Part shown: piece by piece, positions 7,687 to 44,668 of the stretch
How the letters are laid out: each line of letters opens with the position of its first letter
Numbering within the stretch: position 1 is the first letter of the stretch
Source: a virus
Length of the DNA stretch: 44,668 bases
Virus record (IMG/VR): IMGVR_UViG_3300047174_000040
Location: 1 to 44,668 of that record
Reading direction: 5' to 3' (one strand)
The notes under the pieces: model-generated
The model's input: the letters and a program-made list of their open reading frames with translations, nothing else
Told to the model about the DNA's origin: nothing
Databases searched by the model: none
Position numbers and translations under genes: made by a program

Positions 7687-7724
7687 AAAAAGAAAACCCC
7701 CTAGCGCCGGGGGACGCTAGGGGG
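7687..7724 (-). terminator. Rho-independent terminator of the minus-strand replication operon
   Basis: A perfect 10-bp stem: CCCCCTAGCG at 7697-7706 pairs with CGCTAGGGGG at 7715-7724, with an 8-nt loop. Read on the minus strand, the stem is followed by TTTTCTTTTT (7687-7696). It lies 58 bases past the last minus-strand gene, so it ends leftward transcription. Confidence 0.9.
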
Positions 7725-7781
7725 CGTGGGTGCGTGCAATCGCGGTGCTTCAAATCGCCGGGACATTACCCCCGGCAGCGA

Positions 7782-8489
7782 TCACTTTACGCGAAAGATG
7801 CGGGCGCCCGCAACATTAAATTCAGGATCGGTTTCCACAGCCATGATCTTGAACTGGCGCCCTTCCGTGCCGCCTTCAGGGGTTCCCGGCCCGAACTTTT
7901 TATTTGCCTTGTTCACGTTTCCGCCCAATTGCTTTGCCGGGTTCGTAAGGTGGCTGTTTGCCGCCACAAAGAAGCTGTCATACTGCGGCGTAACCCCGTC
8001 TTCGCCCATGACCGGCGCCTGAAGCTTGGCGAAGCCATACTTATCGCGCGGGCCGCGCTTGACTTCAGCCGCCACGGTAGCGGGCAGAGCCATGCGGAAA
8101 CCGCTGTACTCGACACGCGGCGCCGGGGTATTCGGACGCGGGCCGCGCTTGGCGCCTGCGGGCTTGCTGGCGGCTTCTGTGGTGGCTGTGGCCGGTGCAT
8201 CGGCATCATTGCCCGGCAAGCTGGCGGCGGGCGCCTGTGCCCCATCGGCCCCGGCAACGGCGCCAGATGCAGGGGCTTCGGCCGGGAACTCCCCCACAGC
8301 TTTATCCGTGCTGCGATAGGCGATGTGCGCGCCATCGGCCGGGTTAACCGTCTTCGGATCGGACACAACGTAACCCTGGCTTTCCAGCGCCTTCACGGCC
8401 GGATTTTTGGGGCTGGCCCATCCATGGCTACCGGATTTCGTCGCCTGATAAATCGGGGTAAGCGCGGCCAAAAGGTTCGGATTGAGCAT
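7782..8489 (-). CDS. Unknown protein with basic Pro/Ala-rich linker (235 aa)
   Basis: I recognise no family. Three parts are visible: residues 1-65 (TPIYQATKSGSHGWASPKNP..., possibly a winged-helix-like fold), a long Ala/Pro/Gly-rich linker (about 68-125) ending in the basic patch 'AKRGPRPNTPAPRVE', and a C-terminal domain (about 125-235). The linker resembles that of the 11465..12199 protein (RGRPRK...PQAPRVEEAD). The gene has its own promoter and terminator, so it can be expressed separately and strongly. That would suit an abundant DNA-binding or single-strand-binding protein, but this is inference. RBS GGGAG lies before the ATG. Confidence 0.7.
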   Translation of the reverse strand: MLNPNLLAALTPIYQATKSGSHGWASPKNPAVKALESQGYVVSDPKTVNPADGAHIAYRSTDKAVGEFPAEAPASGAVAGADGAQAPAASLPGNDADAPATATTEAASKPAGAKRGPRPNTPAPRVEYSGFRMALPATVAAEVKRGPRDKYGFAKLQAPVMGEDGVTPQYDSFFVAANSHLTNPAKQLGGNVNKANKKFGPGTPEGGTEGRQFKIMAVETDPEFNVAGARIFRVK

Positions 8490-8525: not shown

Positions 8526-8556
8526 CTTATATCCGCTATCGGCAACCTTAAGTCAA
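8526..8556 (-). promoter_or_regulatory. Promoter for the 7782..8489 gene, -35 inside the polymerase stop
   Basis: On the minus strand TTGACT (8556-8551) is followed after 19 bases by TATAAG (8531-8526); GATATA at 17-base spacing is an alternative -10. The -35 hexamer is the last two codons (Leu-Thr) of the DNA polymerase gene. The start codon of the target gene lies about 40 bases downstream. Confidence 0.55.
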
Positions 8557-10431
8557 CCCCCCTAATTGCAATTGAGCGCCGCGCCGGGTTTGAAAGCCTA
8601 TATCTTCCAAAATGCCAAGGGCGGTTTCTTCATAGCGGCCGTAATCTATATCAGTTGGGAAGCTTGGCGGCAACGTCATAAGCGGTTTGCTGCCATCTGA
8701 CATAGGCACCTTGTTGCCGCTCTTGCAATAGACAATTGAGCCTAAAACATTTTTGGCATAATAGTAACGCACAGTTTTACCTAAGTAACGTCCATCTTTT
8801 TGAGCGCCCCCGGTCACTTTCTGCACTATACAGAACCGCTCTATTCTCTGGCAAGTCTGTATAGTTTCAAGCAACGGCACCCCTTTAGTTATATGCGCAA
8901 TTACTGCGTCAACGCAAATCAACTGTTGCGGGTTTTTAGACAGCGGGGAATTTAGGGCCGAACCGACTTCCGAATATACGCCCTTAACCTTCGTTTTGCC
9001 ATCCGGCTTGACAACTATGTAATTGTTCACGTCACGCGAGTAAATCGCTTGATATTCGGTTTCCTCGGTTTCAAGCTGTGTGCGCAATTCCCAAGCCGCC
9101 CATAGGCTGCAAAATTCGGCATAGCGATCTTGTGGGCATAGCGTCACGATACCGTCAGTGTTCGCGCTAACGACTTCAAACCCGTTCAATGTCAAATTTT
9201 CAATTTGCATGAGTAGCGACAACTGCCCGGTTAGCGTGGTTTGCACCATATTGCGCGGGCTATAAAGCGGGCTGAAAGGATCGGATTTCTTACCGAATGT
9301 GCCATTACTGGCAATCTTCAAGCCATCGGCTTCAGCCTTGCGTCCGGCTTTTTTGGCTGCATATCGTTTATTGACGATGGTTTGCAATGCTTCTAGTTCG
9401 CCCGGAATATCCGAAAAATTGTTTTTAAGAATTAGGTTAGGGTAATAGCCGGTAACGTCACGGTCTAACAATCGCATAGTTTCGGTTGCGCGCAATGCTT
9501 GTGACTTTTCCTGACTATGCAAGCCGCCCATGCCGATTGCATAGCGCCTGCCGCCAATGACGAACGCCCGGCCTTCAATTGTTTTAGGGCAGATAACGTG
9601 ACCGCTTGAACCTACCTCGATTTCGGCTGTACGGATTTCGTTTAGAATTTCGTCATAAGCTGGCGTAACGAACCCGATATAAGGCGGCGGCACATAACAA
9701 AACGAACTGCCCACAAGTTTGGTAAAGTCTCGGCGCTTAGGCGGCTTGCCGGTTATCCGTTCAATTTCGCCACAGATAATTTCCTGTGCAAGCTGTGCGT
9801 CCGAGCGGCTGCGCAAATCCTTGCCGAACTCCTGCGACAAAGCGGCGCGCAAATCTAGGTGCGGTTCCAACTCGCGCAATAGCAATTCGGTATTGTCCAA
9901 ATCGTTGAAATTATACGTCCGAACAATTGCGATTTCTTCGCGCGTCAATTCCTTGTCAGGATGATAAGGCAAATCCTGAATTGTGTGGCAATGCAGCCGG
10001 GCAGCATACGTCTTCAGACTGGCGGTAAGCGGCGCCACATCAAACAAATCAATGTGGTTGCAGCGTAGTGGCCACTTCAAATTATGTGCTTGTAACACGT
10101 CTTTAGGCGTGCCGTTAAATTCGATTAGTTCGGCCGTTGCTCGCTTCATATCGGCAGCGGTCACGCCACGGCACAGCGCGGCGATGGTCATAACGATCAA
10201 ATCGTAACTATTGGAATTGAAGCCGACAAGGCAGAAATTGTCTGCCATCCATTGCAACCAATCGTGCTGTATAGGATCGTTACCGACGCTTTCAAAATAA
10301 GCAAATTTACCCGTTTCAATATTCTTGAAGCCGACAAGCCAATAATTGACAAAGCTTTCAACGTCATAAACGAAACAGCCGCCTTTGAGCGCAACTAGTT
10401 CGTCAGTCGTGTAAAATTGCCGTTCGGCCAC
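8548..10431 (-). CDS. Family B DNA polymerase
   Basis: A protein of 627 aa, GTG start, overlapping the clamp-like gene stop by one base. The 3'-5' exonuclease motifs are intact: Exo I YDVES (D23, E25), Exo II FNSNSYD (D77), Exo III YNFND (Y173, D177). Polymerase motifs: A 'DVTGYYP' (D325), B 'KIASNGTFG' (K372-G380), C 'SANTDG' around 422-427. In motif C the first Asp of the usual DTD is Asn, while the second, catalytic Asp (D426) is kept. At 627 aa it is compact for the family and lacks the insertions of protein-primed enzymes that I would look for. It should copy the phage genome together with the clamp-like, helicase and primase proteins. Confidence 0.88.
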   Translation of the reverse strand: MAERQFYTTDELVALKGGCFVYDVESFVNYWLVGFKNIETGKFAYFESVGNDPIQHDWLQWMADNFCLVGFNSNSYDLIVMTIAALCRGVTAADMKRATAELIEFNGTPKDVLQAHNLKWPLRCNHIDLFDVAPLTASLKTYAARLHCHTIQDLPYHPDKELTREEIAIVRTYNFNDLDNTELLLRELEPHLDLRAALSQEFGKDLRSRSDAQLAQEIICGEIERITGKPPKRRDFTKLVGSSFCYVPPPYIGFVTPAYDEILNEIRTAEIEVGSSGHVICPKTIEGRAFVIGGRRYAIGMGGLHSQEKSQALRATETMRLLDRDVTGYYPNLILKNNFSDIPGELEALQTIVNKRYAAKKAGRKAEADGLKIASNGTFGKKSDPFSPLYSPRNMVQTTLTGQLSLLMQIENLTLNGFEVVSANTDGIVTLCPQDRYAEFCSLWAAWELRTQLETEETEYQAIYSRDVNNYIVVKPDGKTKVKGVYSEVGSALNSPLSKNPQQLICVDAVIAHITKGVPLLETIQTCQRIERFCIVQKVTGGAQKDGRYLGKTVRYYYAKNVLGSIVYCKSGNKVPMSDGSKPLMTLPPSFPTDIDYGRYEETALGILEDIGFQTRRGAQLQLGGLT

Positions 10432-11450
10432 TAATGCTTGCCCATGATAAGCCCGCGCGTGTTTTCGCTAATGAATACAGTTGCGGCGCCGGGCGCCCCG
10501 ATCTTGACCCGTTCGGCATACGGTAAGCAAATGTGCCAATAGACTTCGCTGAATTTCTGCCCGCCCGGTAAGCCGGGCACGTCATAGCTTGCGGCCGATT
10601 GCTCTATCAAGTGACCCGTGGCCAAGCGCCCTTCATGGAAATGCAACGTATCGTTTTCAGTGAATTTCTGAATAGCTTTCAGCGCCAGCGCGAAGCCGTC
10701 CCATAGCGGCACGAAATCGCCACCCATGTTTTCCTCGAATAGCTTGCCGACTTTCGGCCATTCGCCAGCGTATAGCCGGGTTTTGATAAATGAGTTGTCA
10801 TCAAAATAAAAGGTGACGCTTCGGCCTTCGCTGAAGCCAAACCCGGCAAGCGGCTTAGTCAATTTGCAAATGGTATCCACCGCCTTTTTGGGGATGCACA
10901 AGCCGGGCGGCAAGTCTATACCGTGCCAATATTCGATTGCAAAACCGCCGTTCGTGCCGATGATTGAACCAGGGCCTAACAGCACGCTTTGATTGATCGC
11001 ACGTTCGCCTTTGCCGGTGCAAGCTTTGCAGCACGCTTTGAACCCTTCCATGATCCTATCGTTAATGTCTGCAACCCAAACGTCAGGATTAGACGGCGTG
11101 ATTTGCTCGCTTGGCAAGATCGGTATGACAGCCCGAAATTTGCCTGACGTTATAGACAATTGTTCGGCCGATACTTGCACCATTTGAAAAGTCGCGCCGC
11201 ATTGTTGCAACGCCGCTTGTAGCTTTTCCGCGTGCAAACTCATATCAAGCGGGCTGTCAACCGGAACGCCTATGCAAAAGGTTTCGTTTTCGGTCATAAG
11301 CAAGCCGTCGCGTATTGTGACAAATGCCGAAAGCCCGGAATTGTCCGAACTGTCAACAGCCACGGCGGCAAATTTCAAAGCCTCTAGCAGCGCCGTTCGA
11401 GCGTTGTTAGTAGATGCAGCCTTAAGCTTTGCCGCCGCGTCAGTTGTCAC
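10431..11450 (-). CDS. DNA polymerase sliding-clamp-like protein
   Basis: A protein of 339 aa, GTG start. Features reminiscent of bacterial beta clamps are repeated domain-like blocks, the 'LSITSGKFRAVIPILPSEQ' segment near residues 108-126 (compare the 'GRSRFSLxTLPAxxFP' region of DnaN) and a C-terminal 'VFISENTRGLIMG', close to the end motif of clamps. It lies directly upstream of the family B polymerase gene with a one-base overlap, which fits a processivity factor. Residues 'CKACTG' add a possible metal site. The clamp call is inference from pattern and position. Confidence 0.55.
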   Translation of the reverse strand: MTTDAAAKLKAASTNNARTALLEALKFAAVAVDSSDNSGLSAFVTIRDGLLMTENETFCIGVPVDSPLDMSLHAEKLQAALQQCGATFQMVQVSAEQLSITSGKFRAVIPILPSEQITPSNPDVWVADINDRIMEGFKACCKACTGKGERAINQSVLLGPGSIIGTNGGFAIEYWHGIDLPPGLCIPKKAVDTICKLTKPLAGFGFSEGRSVTFYFDDNSFIKTRLYAGEWPKVGKLFEENMGGDFVPLWDGFALALKAIQKFTENDTLHFHEGRLATGHLIEQSAASYDVPGLPGGQKFSEVYWHICLPYAERVKIGAPGAATVFISENTRGLIMGKH

Positions 11451-11464
11451 AACTTAAACTTCTA

Positions 11465-12199
11465 TTAAAACGGAATGAAGTCATCGGTAAAGTCTGCGCA
11501 CATTTCCTGCGCATTGACGTTAACCTTTACCGGCACTTTCAGTTTATATTTGCCGCATTGATCGTTCGGCAAATCCATATGCGCGCATTCCAAGCACGAC
11601 ATGCGTTGCGGCGGCATGGCTGGATTTAGCAGCGGGCCGGTGGGCGCCGGGGGTGCGGGTTCCGGCATGTCTTCAATGAGGGTTTCCGCAAGCTTCGCCA
11701 GATCGGCAAGGTTTTGTGCCTGCATTTCGACAACCTTCGTCCGAAACCAGCCTAGCGCCAGTTCGGGCGTAATCACGGGTTCTGCGGCCGGTGCGGCCGG
11801 TGCGGCCCATGACGGCCCGGCGCCGGGAGTTGCGGGCGGCGATGCAGTTACGGTCTGCGTGTCTGCCCTGGGCGGCGTCCATTTGGCTTCAGCCGTGGCC
11901 ACGTCAGCTTCCTCGACACGCGGCGCCTGCGGGCCTGTGGGAGCATTCTTACGCGGTCTGCCGCGTGTGGCTGCAACTGCATCGGCACCTATACGCATTT
12001 CAAGTTCCTTTCGATATATCGCGGTAAATTCTACCGGATATGATATGGTATTTGTTGGCCCTTGCACAGTCACATTATACAATGATTTGGCTTTAACTCG
12101 CAATTCCCGCGTGACGCCGTCGGCTTCAATTGTCACCATGTCCCCAACGTTAATTTGGGACATGGCTGCAGATGCGGCTTCAATGTCAATCATTACCAT
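11465..12199 (-). CDS. Unknown replication-operon protein with AT-hook-like motif and zinc-like tail
   Basis: A protein of 244 aa. Residues 1-70 read like a small beta-barrel (VGDMVTIEADGVTRELRVKA). Residues about 79-85 contain 'RGRPRK', the core of an AT-hook. A Pro/Ala-rich linker follows, then a helical stretch (VVEMQAQNLADLAKLAETLI), and the C-terminus carries CLECAH...CGKY...C ending in 'DDFIPF'. A similar CxxCxH tail ends the nuclease encoded at 13970..14821. The start overlaps the helicase stop. DNA binding is plausible; the precise role is unknown. Confidence 0.7.
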   Translation of the reverse strand: MVMIDIEAASAAMSQINVGDMVTIEADGVTRELRVKAKSLYNVTVQGPTNTISYPVEFTAIYRKELEMRIGADAVAATRGRPRKNAPTGPQAPRVEEADVATAEAKWTPPRADTQTVTASPPATPGAGPSWAAPAAPAAEPVITPELALGWFRTKVVEMQAQNLADLAKLAETLIEDMPEPAPPAPTGPLLNPAMPPQRMSCLECAHMDLPNDQCGKYKLKVPVKVNVNAQEMCADFTDDFIPF

Positions 12200-13821
12200 A
12201 ACGCTTCTACAATGTCAGGGTATTTTTTATTGACGTGCACCTTTATGGATTTGGGCGGGCGCAATTTGTCAACGTGCGCAATTGCGTCGCTTACCGTGGT
12301 GGGCACATAGGCGTCAGGAAACCGGCGCCGCCACCATTCGCGGGCGATCTTGCCACCATAACCGGGGGCTTCAATTGCCACCCATTCAACGAACTGGCGA
12401 AGCCCGCAAACATAGGTTGCGCGGATAACCGGCTTGTCGCCCGGCAACGCATTCTTCTTAATGTGCTGCGTATAATAGACGTGTTCAACGTTGAAGGTTT
12501 CGTAAATCGGCAAGTCGCTGCGCACTAGCACGTCATCAAACACGCCTTTGGTAAACCCAATGCGAGCTTCAAATGGCTGTCCGCAGTCAATACACTCGGT
12601 TGCGCGCGCGTGGTTATACGTGCCGCAAGCCGGGCAAATCTTAACCGGCGCATCGCCTGTGCCTTTGCCTTTCATCTTGGGAATAAAAGGATCGTCAATC
12701 GTGCCCAATCGGCGGGCATTGCCGCCGTGATCGGTCACAAGGCAATTTTCTTTGTGCCAGCCGTTCAACTCATAGGGGCGGGTTCCGCGCCCAAGCATTT
12801 GCACCCATAACCCTGCCGACATGGTTGGGCGAAGCATTATGATGTGATCAATCGGCGGGTGATCTATTCCAGTTGTCGCAATGCCGTTGTTCGTCAACGT
12901 GTCGATTTCGCCACTGAAGAATTGGTTTAGAATTTCGTCACGCTCTTTTCCGGGCATTCTGGAATGAACGGCCTTGGCCTTCAGGCCAGCATAGCGCAGC
13001 ATTTCGGCGGCAATGAGCGCATGGTCAACGCCCGTGCAAAACACAAGGCGGCAATTGCGATCCGCGCCGCGCGCAAGGCTTTCTTGAATTGCGGCCCAAG
13101 TGATTTTTTCGTTGCGCGTGACTTCGTTTAATTGTTTCTCATTGAAGTCGCCCGCTTGCGTGCGCAACTCGGAAATATCGTATTCAGTCTTTACTTTTTT
13201 TGCTACGGGCGGCACTAAATGCCCGTCATCAAACAAGCGGCGAAAGCCTGGAATTGTGCAGATATTGTAAGGGATGTCGGTAAAGATTGGCCCATTAGTA
13301 AGCACGCCCATTCCGGTGCGCCAAATGGTTGCGGTAAAACCAATTACCTTCAGATAAGGATTGATCTGGCGCAATATATTGATGACGCGCATATAGTTCG
13401 CGCTATCGCTATCGCCAATCAAATGCGCCTCATCAACTATCAGGAAATCAATATGGCCGAAAGCGGCAATGATCTTGGCAACAGATTGAACTGACCCGAA
13501 CGTAATGGGGTAATGCAAATCCCGCTGATTAAGCCCGGCTGAATATATGCCAATGGGCGCATGTGCCCACACGCGATGCATTTGCAAATAGTTGTTCTTA
13601 ACCAATTCCTTCACATGCGTAAGGCATAGCACGCGCTGCCCCGGATAAAGTCGCATAACGGCTTCGATAAACGTCGCTTGAACAACGCTTTTGCCCGATC
13701 CCGTTGGCAATGCGATAAGCGGATTGCCTTTATTATTCTGGAAGTAATCAAACAAAGCCGTAATGGCTTCTTCCTGATACCATCGCAAAACGGCCGGTTG
13801 CTTGTATTTGTCTAATATCAT
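12193..13821 (-). CDS. Superfamily 2 DEAH-type helicase with C-terminal zinc finger
   Basis: A protein of 542 aa. The start is set at the ATG in ATGATATTAGAC, which overlaps the stop of the small upstream gene; a frame extension of 11 residues exists but lacks a ribosome-binding site. Visible motifs: Q-like 'LRWYQEEAI', Walker A LPTGSGKS (38-45), DEAH at 130-133, motif III TAT (163-165), and motif VI QMLGRGTR (341-348). A C4 zinc finger follows (CPAC 396-399, C410, C413). The type resembles phage UvsW-like or RecQ-like unwinding enzymes used in origin opening or recombination. Confidence 0.9.
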   Translation of the reverse strand: MILDKYKQPAVLRWYQEEAITALFDYFQNNKGNPLIALPTGSGKSVVQATFIEAVMRLYPGQRVLCLTHVKELVKNNYLQMHRVWAHAPIGIYSAGLNQRDLHYPITFGSVQSVAKIIAAFGHIDFLIVDEAHLIGDSDSANYMRVINILRQINPYLKVIGFTATIWRTGMGVLTNGPIFTDIPYNICTIPGFRRLFDDGHLVPPVAKKVKTEYDISELRTQAGDFNEKQLNEVTRNEKITWAAIQESLARGADRNCRLVFCTGVDHALIAAEMLRYAGLKAKAVHSRMPGKERDEILNQFFSGEIDTLTNNGIATTGIDHPPIDHIIMLRPTMSAGLWVQMLGRGTRPYELNGWHKENCLVTDHGGNARRLGTIDDPFIPKMKGKGTGDAPVKICPACGTYNHARATECIDCGQPFEARIGFTKGVFDDVLVRSDLPIYETFNVEHVYYTQHIKKNALPGDKPVIRATYVCGLRQFVEWVAIEAPGYGGKIAREWWRRRFPDAYVPTTVSDAIAHVDKLRPPKSIKVHVNKKYPDIVEALW

Positions 13822-13973
13822 TGTGCGGCCAATATCTGCCGAACGCGCCAGCAAGCGCGCTTAAATGTTAAAGCTGTGTCAATTCGTTTACCGTCTAAAG
13901 CTATTGACCAATAGCCGTATGGACGCCGCGAACAACGATCTAGCGTATAGCCTTTATAAAAGCGCCGCGTCAT
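13818..13973 (-). CDS. Small basic protein between nuclease and helicase (51 aa)
   Basis: An open frame of 51 codons starting MTRRFYKGYTLDRCSRRPYG and ending ILAAQ. Its ATG overlaps the nuclease stop (ATGA) and its TGA overlaps the helicase start (ATGA), so it fills the gap exactly. That is the main evidence it is real. It is strongly basic (Arg/Lys-rich), has no membrane segment and could bind nucleic acid. No family is recognised. Confidence 0.72.
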   Translation of the reverse strand: MTRRFYKGYTLDRCSRRPYGYWSIALDGKRIDTALTFKRACWRVRQILAAQ

Positions 13974-14821
13974 GCGAAAGCCTCCCATTGTGGGCACGCG
14001 GCCCGGATTGCGTCATGCGGAATAATGGCATTCCAATGATTGCAGCGCCAAGTTTTATCAGGCTGCGGCGCGCTGTGCTTGCAAGATCGGCAATTGACGT
14101 TGACAGGTTCGCCCCGGTGGCAAATGCCAGCCATGGGGCAAAACTTGCAATCCGAATAGGCGTCACTGGCGGCGATCTTGGGCGGCAGATGCACAGCGGC
14201 AATGATATGCGCGGCTTTCTGCGCAAGCTGACGGCCTAGCGTATGGTCTAACTCGACAACCTCAATATACAGTTCGTCAGTGTTTTTGTTGACGGCCATA
14301 TAAATTGCGTAATCAAACCCGAACGCTTCGCCATAAACCGACATTTGCGCAAAATGCTTCGGCTTGCTAAGCTTAACGCCGTCTTTTTTCAGCTTGTCGA
14401 ATGACCGCTGATTATGCGTTTTATATTCGCCTAGAAACTCGGGCGGCAATTCGCCATAGGCGGGCGGCAATGACAACCGTTCGTCAAGCGATCCGCCGTA
14501 AAGCCCCTTGCCTTCAATGCGCCATTGCTTGCCGCTTTCCGGCTTGTGCAATTTGGCGCCGATTAACTCTAGCATTAACTGGAAGCGACTTTCCTCAAAA
14601 TGTCCGCGCTTAAACAGCCGGTGCATTTGCCCGCTTAAATTCTCCCGGTGCATCCATCGGAAAGAATAGGTTAACCGCCGCGCGCAAGTTTCGCCTATTT
14701 CGCTTGCGCCTAAATGATCGCGCGGGCCTTCGTCAAAATGCGCAATGCAAGCGGCGTCAATATCAGCCATTAAACGCGCTGCCAGTTGCTTGCGGTCTGC
14801 CCCGCTTAATTTGATATTCAT
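13970..14821 (-). CDS. Cas4/RecB-like PD-(D/E)XK nuclease with Fe-S-type cysteines
   Basis: A protein of 283 aa. The start at 14821 (MNIKLSG) is chosen because it overlaps the previous stop (ATGA); the open frame extends further but inside the neighbouring gene. The nuclease core shows 'GGSLDERL' (Asp) then 'LGEYKTHN' (E-x-K), preceded by Cys in 'IGETCARRLTYSFRW' and followed by 'CKFCPMAGIC', the four-Cys arrangement of Cas4/AddB-like Fe-S nucleases. After this comes an extra tail 'NCRSCKHS...CNHW...CPQWEAF'. It probably processes DNA ends in recombination or replication with the helicase and the RecA-like NTPase of the same operon. Confidence 0.85.
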   Translation of the reverse strand: MNIKLSGADRKQLAARLMADIDAACIAHFDEGPRDHLGASEIGETCARRLTYSFRWMHRENLSGQMHRLFKRGHFEESRFQLMLELIGAKLHKPESGKQWRIEGKGLYGGSLDERLSLPPAYGELPPEFLGEYKTHNQRSFDKLKKDGVKLSKPKHFAQMSVYGEAFGFDYAIYMAVNKNTDELYIEVVELDHTLGRQLAQKAAHIIAAVHLPPKIAASDAYSDCKFCPMAGICHRGEPVNVNCRSCKHSAPQPDKTWRCNHWNAIIPHDAIRAACPQWEAFA

Positions 14822-15414
14822 GCGCTGGCATGTTCCGGCACCGGGGCGCGCACATAGGCAATCGCCGCGTGATCCGGGCAATATATCGCACGCTTTGACC
14901 CTGTGGGCAGGCAGCACGCTTGAAAGCCTAACCGGGCACGCTTGGCGGGCCATTCGCATTGCCCGGCTTCAGGCCAGACTACAGGGCCTTCGTGCATTGG
15001 TTCCGTGGCAACAGGGATCGGCGGCAGGCTTTCGCCAGTGGGCGACGGCTTGCGGCCTGACTGTGCGCGCGAGCCAGACCGGCGCCCAAGCGGGTTGCCT
15101 GTAGTGGTGCGTTTGACGAAACCGTTGCGCGCGCACAAGCCGTCCATGACGCGGCGATTGATGCCTAACGTTGCAAGAACGGTTGGCGTCGGCATGTCGC
15201 TTGCCCACAATTGGCGGGCGTGTTCGATAAATTCGGCCGAATAACGCGGCTGCGGTTTTTCTTTAACCTTCGCAATATTAGCCTTAATTGAGTTGTAGCA
15301 AGTCGGGCGCGGTATCGACAAAATAAATGCAATTTCTCGCACCTTTTTGCCTTCGTTTTTCAGTTCAATAATGCGCGCAACAATTTCGGGCGGAGTTTTG
15401 AAACCGGACGCCAT
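14818..15414 (-). CDS. GcrA-like transcription regulator with extra N-terminal HTH
   Basis: A protein of 198 aa from ATG 15414; a TTG 15 bases upstream is an alternative start. The C-terminal 45 residues show C-x-W-P ... F-x-x-C-C ... YCPDHAAIAY. This is the signature of the GcrA C-terminal domain, which in Caulobacter contacts sigma70, with the cysteines/histidine ordered as in that family; the usual 'GDP' after CEWP is replaced. A helix-turn-helix-like segment in the middle (ARQLWASDMPTPTVLATLGI) corresponds to the GcrA DNA-binding domain. A second HTH-like segment (KKVREIAFILSIPRPTCYNS) sits at the N-terminus. Inference: a phage factor that recruits host RNA polymerase or reads GANTC methylation. 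Confidence 0.72.
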   Translation of the reverse strand: MASGFKTPPEIVARIIELKNEGKKVREIAFILSIPRPTCYNSIKANIAKVKEKPQPRYSAEFIEHARQLWASDMPTPTVLATLGINRRVMDGLCARNGFVKRTTTGNPLGRRSGSRAQSGRKPSPTGESLPPIPVATEPMHEGPVVWPEAGQCEWPAKRARLGFQACCLPTGSKRAIYCPDHAAIAYVRAPVPEHASA

Positions 15415-15512
15415 GCAATCGACTTTCAATTAGAGGCAACGGCGGGGCCAGTTGCGGCCAGCCCCGCCCATAGCCACCCTAACCTATTGCCATAGATCGG
15501 GCGGCTATTCAG

Positions 15513-16121
15513 TCAGGATGCCCAAGGCGGCTTGCCAGCCGCAGCGCCCCCGGCAGGCTGTTGCTGCCACGACGGGCCAGCCGGTGCCGCCGCCTGCCTT
15601 GCCGGGGGGTTGCCGCCGCCCGTGGCCGCATTGCTCCATGACGGTGCCCCGCCTGCCGGTGCCGCCTGTGCTTGGGCCTGTGGCGCTGCCTGTGCGCCTG
15701 AAGGCTGCACACCCAATCGCGGCGGTTCGCCCGCCATGTCATACACGCCGGAAATTTCCGTGTATTTATCATCGCTTTTCTGCGGCGTGACTTGCACCAC
15801 AAACGGCACGTTGAACAATTCGGATGCGTTCGGGGTTTCCAAAACATGCCGCCCGGTCACATGGCAAATTGCCGACAACTGGCGCCCGGCAATTTCGGCC
15901 GCTTGCGGGTTTTTGTTCCAAAGGTTAAGGCGATATTCGCCCGTGAAACCTTTGTGTTCCCCGTCAATGACCCGCAGCGTAAAGACAAGCATTCCGCTTT
16001 CAGGATCATTTTTAGTCGATTTGCGTTCGGACGAAATCGCAACAACTGGCATCCGCCCAAGCGGCCAATTGGGCGAACCCTGTGACGGATCAACCGCCTG
16101 TGCGTTAAACCATGCTGTCAT
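15513..16121 (-). CDS. DUF669-like phage protein, probable single-strand DNA-binding
   Basis: A protein of 202 aa. Residues 1-130 (MPVVAISSERKSTKN..., 'GEYRLNLWNKNPQAAEIAGRQ', 'LFNVPFVVQVTPQKSDDKYTEI') match the arrangement of DUF669 proteins, which sit beside RecA-like NTPases and Cas4-like nucleases in phage recombination modules. The last 65 residues are Ala/Gly/Pro/Gln-rich and end with an aromatic-acid-poor tip (GKPPWAS), similar in composition to SSB linkers. It lies 6 bases after the NTPase gene. SSB function is inference. Confidence 0.65.
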   Translation of the reverse strand: MTAWFNAQAVDPSQGSPNWPLGRMPVVAISSERKSTKNDPESGMLVFTLRVIDGEHKGFTGEYRLNLWNKNPQAAEIAGRQLSAICHVTGRHVLETPNASELFNVPFVVQVTPQKSDDKYTEISGVYDMAGEPPRLGVQPSGAQAAPQAQAQAAPAGGAPSWSNAATGGGNPPARQAAAPAGPSWQQQPAGGAAAGKPPWAS

Positions 16122-16127
16122 AACTCT

Positions 16128-16811
16128 TTAAACTCCCGTTGATTTTGCAATGATATGCGTCAAGTCTGCCGGTTCCCATTCAGCCAACCGGCCGCGCCGG
16201 TTGCGTGCCAATACGCCATCCGTATTTTCCCGGCATTGCAACCATGCACTTTCAACGCCATTCGCTTCTTTACCGCGCTTCAGATAAAGCACGTTATCGA
16301 AATGATATGGCAAACTTGGCCCAAGCTTCGGCAACGCGGCGAAAGGCACGATATTCTTTAATCCCCCTACGCCTTCCGTCACTTCAGCTTTGGACGTAAT
16401 GAATATATTTTTGCCCGGAATATTCAGAAAGTCAACCACAACCCCGTTAATTTCCGCAACCGTTTCGGGCGAAAATTTACGGGCATCGTTTTTGTATTTT
16501 TTCCGGTTATCCGCAAGCGTGTCTTCAGACAGCGCGCTAATGCTATCCATGAATATGTTTTTGTATTTCTTGCATTCCGCGCTACCGACAAGCCAGGGCA
16601 GCACGGCAAGTATTTCCTTCAAATCCGGTGCCCACACGTAAGGCACTCGCGCGTCAACTAATGACGCTAAGCCGGGTTCCGTGCTGACTACAAGCACGTC
16701 TTTAAGCGTTGCAGCCAACGGCGTTTTGCCCGATCCGGCTAGGCCATAAATTAGAGCGCTAACCTTATTCGTGCGAATATCGCCAGTGTTGTAAACCGTT
16801 GGGCTGGCCAT
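16128..16811 (-). CDS. RecA/AAA-type phage nucleotide-binding protein
   Basis: A protein of 227 aa. Walker A is 'YGLAGSGKT' (residues 22-30); a Walker B-like strand is 'NIFMDSISAL'. The compact layout (VSTEPGLASL after the P-loop, GKNIFITSKAEV later) fits the phage AAA_24/RecA-like ATPases that accompany DUF669 proteins and act as recombinases or their loaders. The C-terminus has Arg/Lys-rich motifs (RNRRGRLAEWEP). The start overlaps the stop of the 47-aa membrane ORF by one base. Confidence 0.85.
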   Translation of the reverse strand: MASPTVYNTGDIRTNKVSALIYGLAGSGKTPLAATLKDVLVVSTEPGLASLVDARVPYVWAPDLKEILAVLPWLVGSAECKKYKNIFMDSISALSEDTLADNRKKYKNDARKFSPETVAEINGVVVDFLNIPGKNIFITSKAEVTEGVGGLKNIVPFAALPKLGPSLPYHFDNVLYLKRGKEANGVESAWLQCRENTDGVLARNRRGRLAEWEPADLTHIIAKSTGV

Positions 16812-42748: not shown

Positions 42749-44668
42749 GCATTCTTGACACCTTCACAATTCTTTTCGATAGCAATGCCGACAAGGTTAG
42801 AAAGGGCGTTGACGAAGCTGACGCCGCAAGCAAAAAGCTTGTTACTGATTTAGACGCAACCGGCAATGCCGGGGCTGCGGCGGCAGAACATATTGAACAT
42901 GCCAATAGCAAGCTTGCCGAAAGCTTTGACGTAATTAAAGAACACGCCGGGGAAATGGCTTCCCGGCTTATTGAACATGCGTTGGAAGTTGCGGCAGCGT
43001 TTCAAGCGTTGTTTGCAGTTGAGCGGCTAGTTGATAACTTTTTTGAAACTGCCGAACAATCCGACCAATTGGGCGAACGCGCAAAAGAATTAGGCGTTCA
43101 AACCGAACAACTAGACGCCTGGGGTAACGCTGCAAAACGGGTTGGCGGGTCTGCCGAAGGGTTCGGGCAAAGCCTGCTAAACGTCAACCGCCAAATGGCG
43201 CGAATGGAGGCAACCGGCAAAAGCCGCATTCTGCCGTTCTTTAAAGAACTTGGCGTATCTATGACCGATACGCACGGCAAAATCGTTCCGCTAATGGATT
43301 TGCTGCCCAAGCTGGCGGCGGCAACCGAAGGCAAGAGCAAGCAAGAAACTGCGGGCGCCCTTCGCGGCATCGGCTTTGATGAAGGCACCATACGGCTGTT
43401 ACAGCGCGGCGGTGCAGAAGTCGATAAGCTTATTGCCCGGCAAAAACAACTCGGTCTAGTGACCGCTGAAGACGCGGAAACAGCCGAAAAATTCAATATC
43501 GAATGGGATGACGTTAAGCAAGTTTTCCACTCGGTCACAGTGGAACTTGACACCTATTTTTTGCCGATACTTGAAGACGTATTGGACGCGGTAGAAACGC
43601 TAATTGAATTTTTGCGCGACCACAAAGATTTGGTTGTGGGGTTCTTTATCGCGGCAGGCGCGGCGGCGCTATGGGCGGCGGATGCGTTCGGTTTGCTCGA
43701 CATTGTGCTTGCGATCTTAACCAGTCCAATTACGTTGCTAGTTGCCGCTGTGGCTGGCGTGATTGCCGTTTTTGCGTTGCTATACGATGATATTATGGCC
43801 TTTTCAAAAGGCAATAAGTCAGTTATTGGCGAACTGGCAAAATCTTGGCCCATCGTTGGCGAGATTGTGCGCGGCATTATTACCGTGTTTGCAGATCTTA
43901 AAGAGGCCGCAATTGAAACGTTTGTTGCAATTCTAAATTGGATTAAGAAAATTCCGCAAGGGTTCGCGGAATGGGAAGAAATCTTTACCTATATCAGCGG
44001 CGTAATATCGGCTTTCGCGAAACACGTTGCGGCTGTGCTTGAAGAATGGGTACCCGGCATCGGCGCTGTAATGGACGATATTGCTGCTGTATTTAAAGCC
44101 TCGGTGCCCGTGTGGGCAGCGATTTTTACCGGCCAATTTGAAATTATAAAAGGCATATTTATTGCATTTTTTGATTTTACTAAGGCTGTCTTTGTGTTGC
44201 TCGCTGAAATTGTAGTTGATCCGATCCATGCTTTTCAGCATTTCGGCGCGGCTGTCATGGCAATCATTCAACAGTTAATTGGCGCATTTCCGCATGTGAC
44301 CGATGCTTTTAAAGACGTTGGCACGGCATTCGCTGCAATCGGCCAAAACATAATTAAGCTATGGCAAGATATTGAAAATACAGTGCTTGGCGTCGTGAAC
44401 AAAGTCACGGGAGCCATAAGCACGGTTAAGGGGTTCGTGGGCGGCGCCTGGACAGCCGTAGTCAACCGAATTGAACATAACGTTACCGCCAACGTGCCCG
44501 ATCCTACGCAACAGCCTGGGGGTGTTGGCGTGACGCCTGGAAGCCCGGTTGCAAGGCAGGTTGAAGCTGACCAAAAGGCGACAGCCGCGCCATTGCCCCA
44601 AGCCGCGCCATTGCCCCAAGCCGCGCCATTGCCCCAAGCCGCGCCATTGCCCCAAGCCGCGCCATTGC
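42745..44668 (+). CDS. Tail tape-measure protein (continues at 1..295)
   Basis: GTG start in the GTGA overlap with the frameshift product. The open frame runs off the window and continues at base 1. Residues 1-130 are helical coiled coil (FDSNADKVRKGVDEADAASK...). About 130-270 form a lambda-like tape-measure block (GVQTEQLDAWGNAAKRVGGS; LVTAEDAETAEKFNIEWDDV). Then come hydrophobic segments (LVVGFFIAAGAAALWAADAF, LVAAVAGVIAVFALLY) and long amphipathic helices. The C-terminus is a Pro/Ala repeat. Total length about 735 aa, short for the family, implying a short tail of roughly 110 nm if 1.5 angstrom per residue applies. Confidence 0.9.
   Translation, partial: MSILDTFTILFDSNADKVRKGVDEADAASKKLVTDLDATGNAGAAAAEHIEHANSKLAESFDVIKEHAGEMASRLIEHALEVAAAFQALFAVERLVDNFFETAEQSDQLGERAKELGVQTEQLDAWGNAAKRVGGSAEGFGQSLLNVNRQMARMEATGKSRILPFFKELGVSMTDTHGKIVPLMDLLPKLAAATEGKSKQETAGALRGIGFDEGTIRLLQRGGAEVDKLIARQKQLGLVTAEDAETAEKFNIEWDDVKQVFHSVTVELDTYFLPILEDVLDAVETLIEFLRDHKDLVVGFFIAAGAAALWAADAFGLLDIVLAILTSPITLLVAAVAGVIAVFALLYDDIMAFSKGNKSVIGELAKSWPIVGEIVRGIITVFADLKEAAIETFVAILNWIKKIPQGFAEWEEIFTYISGVISAFAKHVAAVLEEWVPGIGAVMDDIAAVFKASVPVWAAIFTGQFEIIKGIFIAFFDFTKAVFVLLAEIVVDPIHAFQHFGAAVMAIIQQLIGAFPHVTDAFKDVGTAFAAIGQNIIKLWQDIENTVLGVVNKVTGAISTVKGFVGGAWTAVVNRIEHNVTANVPDPTQQPGGVGVTPGSPVARQVEADQKATAAPLPQAAPLPQAAPLPQAAPLPQAAPL
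44584..44668 (+). repeat. 18-bp tandem repeat at the contig end (AAPLPQ)n
   Basis: The 18-bp unit GCCGCGCCATTGCCCCAA starts at 44584, 44602, 44620 and 44638, with a 13-base partial fifth copy at 44656 that joins the copy at base 1. It is in frame with the tape-measure gene (six codons per unit). A contig break inside identical repeats means copy number is uncertain. Confidence 0.9.

Follow-up and report, generated by a model that had tools for sequence, protein, structure and literature searches.

The window, by which we mean the whole 44,668-nucleotide stretch of viral DNA analyzed (IMG/VR record IMGVR_UViG_3300047174_000040), carries on its minus strand a group of replication genes, among which lies a gene related to gcrA. 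The features of this region are as follows.

8548–10431, minus strand: DNA polymerase.
10431–11450, minus strand: DNA polymerase processivity factor (clamp).
12193–13854, minus strand: DNA helicase.
13970–14821, minus strand: Cas4-type exonuclease (phrog_1990, E 4e-89), whose ATG overlaps the stop codon of the GcrA-like gene (ATGA).
14818–15414, minus strand: GcrA-related gene (198 aa, ATG start), recognized by a profile match over residues 59–190, by the structure model and by the PDB rows.
14845–14970, minus strand: GcrA sigma-interacting-type domain (residues 149–190), with C153, W155, P156, F164, C167, Y178, C179 and H182.
14971–15117, minus strand: low-confidence linker (residues 100–148), with pLDDT mostly 54–69 and secondary structure absent.
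15118–15243, minus strand: DNA-binding domain at the GcrA position (residues 58–99), placed by the model on 5yiu and colinear in the profile match.
15265–15390, minus strand: extra N-terminal helix-turn-helix (HTH) of non-GcrA type (residues ~9–50), with an HTH_23 match, three model helices and no score against the GcrA DNA-binding domain.
15441–15468, minus strand: hairpin between the SSB and GcrA-like genes, with 8-bp perfect arms and no U-tract.
15470–15508, minus strand: second hairpin, directly after the SSB stop codon.
15513–16121, minus strand: single-strand DNA-binding protein (SSB).
16128–16811, minus strand: Sak4-like recombinase.

The GcrA-like gene is thus preceded by the genes for SSB and the Sak4-like recombinase and followed by those for the Cas4-type exonuclease, helicase, clamp, and DNA polymerase; as to the exonuclease start, the closest relatives align from residue 47 of the longer open reading frame. 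Relatives of the capsid protein and helicase of the window are found in phages of Xanthomonas, Serratia, Rhodobacter, and others. At the two ends of the window, an 18-bp unit, AGCCGCGCCATTGCCCCA, forms tandem repeats (44583–44665) and recurs at position 1 (1–49), where a 21-bp inverted repeat is formed by it as well, probably reflecting either an assembly that ends in a tandem repeat or a terminal redundancy.

GcrA, a host protein, directs RNA polymerase in the course of the cell cycle, acting as an essential cofactor. Methylated promoters are read through its residues 1–45, and domain 2 of the sigma factor is bound through residues 108–173 (review, PMC7403470). The kinship to GcrA claimed in the original prediction is borne out, the 198-residue minus-strand protein being a real, although remote, GcrA homologue. 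Against a profile of GcrAs from bacterial genomes and phages, reduced to 43 sequences and excluding the window protein, it reached 30.9 bits (E 8e-8), ranking first among 3,486 targets that included 2,000 shuffles, the other open reading frames of the window and those of 17 related loci, with a runner-up of 8.5. Since the match aligns residues 59–190 with HMM positions 4–147 of 167, the protein is colinear with the whole of GcrA, and a significant match across the DNA-binding domain, linker, and sigma-interacting domain establishes GcrA homology in the wide sense; an hhalign comparison with four GcrAs gave a probability of 93.5% (E 2.4e-7). The significance comes mainly from the C-terminal domain, which, scored apart, reached 22.3 bits, above all 1,000 shuffles (best, 16.5), whereas the HTH at the GcrA position scored apart gave 7.2 bits against 7.8 for the best shuffle and is not significant by sequence. 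Scores for the curated models, 14.7 bits (E 0.04) for Pfam GcrA (PF07750) and 11.6 bits for the NCBIfam GcrA equivalog (NF050816), fall under the respective cut-offs of 26.9 and 280 bits, so that standard annotation would overlook the protein. Because these cut-offs are not reached and two invariant glycines are missing, the protein is not classed as a GcrA equivalog. Annotated phages, IMG/VR, and GTDB genomes yielded no near relative of the protein as a whole, and a DNA-pattern search for its unusual CEWPAKR loop returned matches in unrelated frames only.

The AlphaFold model, which was built with a GcrA alignment and is thereby biased in favor of the GcrA fold, comprises three-helix domains at residues 9–50 and 60–97, then a linker of poor order, and finally a C-terminal domain that is ordered. 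Residues 52–99 of the model align with the GcrA DNA-binding domain (5yiu) at an rmsd of 1.6 Å over 48 residues (Z 6.7), having the fold of that domain, and the top PDB rows of the second alignment were 5yiu and 7ye1_G (GcrA in the RNA polymerase complex). The 7ye1_G row, in which the sigma-interacting domain is aligned only within the whole model, covers residues 56–197 at an rmsd of 12.3 Å, a high value that is probably due to the flexible linker. In BFVD, five rows had E <1e-3; of these, four were named phage GcrAs and one bore no name. AlphaFold prediction from the single sequence yielded helices only, with low confidence (pLDDT 40). As such Z values are common among HTH proteins and the model used the GcrA alignment, the predicted fold supports GcrA homology but is insufficient as stand-alone proof.

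Judging from the profile match and the model, the domain order is a non-GcrA HTH, a GcrA-like HTH, the linker, and the CxWP...YCxxH domain. All three parts of the CxWP / FxxCC / YCxxHxxIAY pattern first noticed in the protein are present (CEWP, residues 153–156; FQACC, 164–168; YCPDHAAIAY, 178–187), and the GDP reported as missing after the first motif is indeed replaced, with AKRA standing for the IGDP of the GcrA family. The protein was also said to add an N-terminal HTH of its own; the extra HTH was found, but the HTH-like domains number two, not one. The first of these matches HTH_23 with E 7e-4, under the HTH_23 cut-off, and its origin as a duplicated GcrA DNA-binding domain found no support (1.6 bits against that domain, no GcrA signal). 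In the sigma-interacting-type domain, the C/C/C/H residues (C153, C167, C179, and H182) are kept together with W155, P156, and Y178, letters by which the set of 43 GcrAs was partly chosen. G123 (after WP(I)) and G134 (in the CG pair), invariant in the 43 GcrAs and unused in choosing them, are both replaced, by K158 and C168, respectively, and D124, P125, and F132 (GcrA numbering) are also lost. N34, K39, and H41 of the recognition helix, which are 84–91% conserved in the set, have become R88, L93, and A95 (N34R, K39L, and H41A); R33, G38, R42, and G44 of GcrA are retained, leaving only R33 and R42 of the recognition residues R33/N34/K39/H41/R42. In view of the extra DNA-binding domain and the altered key residues, other DNA sites are probably read, and, because two invariant glycines are lost, the contact with the sigma factor may be lost as well.

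The description of the gene as embedded in the replication operon holds in part: the replication neighbors are confirmed, but the gene is not conserved at this place, occupies a variable slot and is separated from the SSB gene by strong hairpins. The 98 bp between the two genes contain two adjacent strong hairpins (z -4.3). Hairpins after the SSB gene are strong (z < -3) in 9 of the 12 related loci folded, a U-run following some of them, and, given this recurrence, the post-SSB hairpin probably serves as a conserved terminator or attenuator. The space from the hairpin to the exonuclease gene holds differing small genes, or none, in the relatives; owing to this varying content, the GcrA-like gene is cargo occupying a variable slot and does not belong to the replication core. 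The 11 related records searched gave no GcrA match and the 17 related loci no motif, many of the records and loci being fragmentary, and the gene was rejected on this absence as a conserved member of the replication module. The sequence ahead of the gene has no consensus match to a sigma70 promoter.

The window is, as originally stated, almost free of GANTC, with 3 sites as compared with an average of 96.9 over 100 shuffles; GANTC is the most avoided palindrome tested, followed by GTAC (6 vs 81). GTAC, GCATGC, CCGCGG, and GCCGGC also fall far short of the first-order expectation, a pattern that would suit the avoidance of several restriction systems. GANTC occurs at 0.03–0.42 of expectation in GcrA-carrying phage stretches, at 0.00–0.08 in relatives without detectable GcrA (L002, L003, L004, L005, L007, L009, and L011), and near expectation (0.75–0.91) in L006, L008, L010, and L017; several replication-module relatives without detectable GcrA have 0–3 sites, with 11–40 expected. 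The scarcity probably tracks host methylation or restriction. Because related phages without detectable GcrA are equally depleted, it does not point to a GcrA mechanism in the way first suggested, and its use as support for a diversion of the host polymerase was rejected. CtrA sites in the phage (3 vs 1.2 expected) are not significantly enriched, and a search of the phage for a target site of the window protein found none.

The idea that a phage-borne GcrA had been previously undescribed does not stand. GcrA homologues in phiCbK-like phages were described in 2012 by Gill et al., who proposed that they raise the replication capacity of the host (PMC3556154), a proposal cited in two later papers (PMC7987155, PMC9437464), and annotated GcrAs occur in Synechococcus, Rhizobium, and Brevundimonas phage records; no experimental test of the role of a phage GcrA was found in the literature searched. 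The novelty of the window protein lies in its extra HTH and in how far it has diverged. It shares with Caulobacter crescentus GcrA (PF07750; 5yiu, 5yix, and 7ye1) the domain order, the HTH fold, and the CxWP, F, C, YC, H, A, and Y positions, but has an extra N-terminal HTH, lacks GDP, G134, and the recognition-helix N, K, and H, and ends in a short C-terminus without the RSLRRY tail. The phiCbK gp222 protein and the annotated GcrAs of Caulobacter, Synechococcus, and Brevundimonas phages are likewise GcrA homologues on phage genomes; the GcrAs of phiCbK and Ssp-JY42, however, score 89 and 123 Pfam bits, far over the cut-off, and have one DNA-binding domain, the window protein being far more divergent. 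The GcrA-like QWY83191.1 of Rhizobium phage RHph_X2_24 is 28% identical over residues 61–182 and also has a divergent recognition helix, but, unlike the window protein, retains G-D in its GDP loop, has no extra HTH and reaches 60.6 Pfam bits.

Other domain rearrangements of GcrA, more surprising than the one in the window, were observed in phages. In IMGVR_UViG_3300023194_000048 (L128:4933-5754:+), tandem GcrA-type DNA-binding domains are followed by a sigma-interacting-type domain; this protein resembles the window protein in having two HTH domains before the latter, but there both HTHs belong to the GcrA type and the IGE loop remains, whereas the first HTH of the window protein is of non-GcrA type. 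In IMGVR_UViG_3300035703_000164 (L129:4054-4710:-), a 218-aa protein carries DnaA domain IV (PF08299, 47.8 bits, above the cut-off) and then a GcrA-like DNA-binding domain (20.3 bits, below the cut-off); its gene shares 4 bp with an adjacent canonical GcrA gene, with a third gene resembling the GcrA DNA-binding domain nearby (7718–7978). In IMGVR_UViG_3300049982_000337 (L130:5071-6519:+), a 482-aa protein encoded directly 3' of a canonical GcrA gene has a C-terminal GcrA sigma-interacting domain (PF07750, 35.1 bits), its N-terminal regions being unassigned. It is conceivable, albeit rather doubtful, that alphaproteobacterial phages use GcrA domains as portable parts, combining the sigma-interacting domain with swapped DNA-binding domains into methylation-independent sigma70 activators for phage promoters, of which the window protein, the tandem-domain GcrA, the 482-aa protein, and the DnaA-domain-IV fusion would be designs.

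We propose, with a probability of about 0.45, that the window protein, a divergent phage GcrA homologue, acts as a sigma70 cofactor with changed targeting, its likeliest role. This reading fits best because the sigma-side domain is conserved and the DNA side rebuilt and extended in a phage without methylated GcrA sites. Domain 2 of sigma70 would still be the docking site of the C-terminal domain, and the pair of HTHs would guide the sigma70 polymerase to sites without methylation, which are probably promoters of the phage given that the phage genome has almost no GANTC; judging from its position, the protein may be co-produced with the products of the Cas4-exonuclease-to-polymerase genes via the overlapping stop and start codons. 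Variation on the DNA-binding side of GcrA in other phages speaks for such a cofactor, whereas the sub-cut-off scores, the GcrA alignment behind the model, the low confidence of the single-sequence model, the lost glycines, the GcrA-position HTH not significant by itself, and the lack of both a target site and a close relative speak against it. The losses in the sigma-interacting domain (G123, D124, P125, F132, and G134), together with the replication setting and the generic HTH matches, would suit a DNA-binding regulator or replication accessory that has lost sigma70 contact, whose HTHs would bind an operator or origin of the phage and whose C-terminal domain would be no more than a metal-stabilized remnant; as this is the best conserved domain and keeps C/C/C/H and most aromatics, which is odd for a remnant, we find such a protein somewhat unlikely.

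Retention of the sigma-interacting-type domain alongside loss of the DNA-reading residues of GcrA could also indicate a sigma70 decoy, the first option raised in the original prediction, which would occupy the GcrA site on sigma70, starve the GcrA-dependent promoters of the host, and shut down its program, the phage itself having little GANTC to lose. For this purpose, however, two HTH domains would be needless, the loop of the sigma domain is changed too, and GANTC is scarce also in related phages without detectable GcrA, making a decoy unlikely. A functional GcrA mimic of the kind suggested for phiCbK gp222 (PMC3556154), acting at promoters with methylated GANTC to turn on replication genes of the host, would accord with the replication neighborhood but hardly with the change of all of N34, K39, and H41, and is more improbable still. 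Least probable by far, and already disfavored, is that an unrelated HTH protein, having a Cys/His cluster at its C-terminus, resembles GcrA by chance: although the Pfam score lies under the cut-off and one shuffle of the C-terminal domain comes to 16.5 bits, the full-length colinear match is far above the 2,000 shuffles and hhalign agrees. Returning to the sigma70 cofactor with changed targeting, if sigma70 is bound without the reading of methylation, the two halves of GcrA action would have been separated, the way in which a phage takes over an essential cell-cycle cofactor of its host would be shown, and the presence of GcrA in phages almost devoid of GANTC sites would be accounted for.
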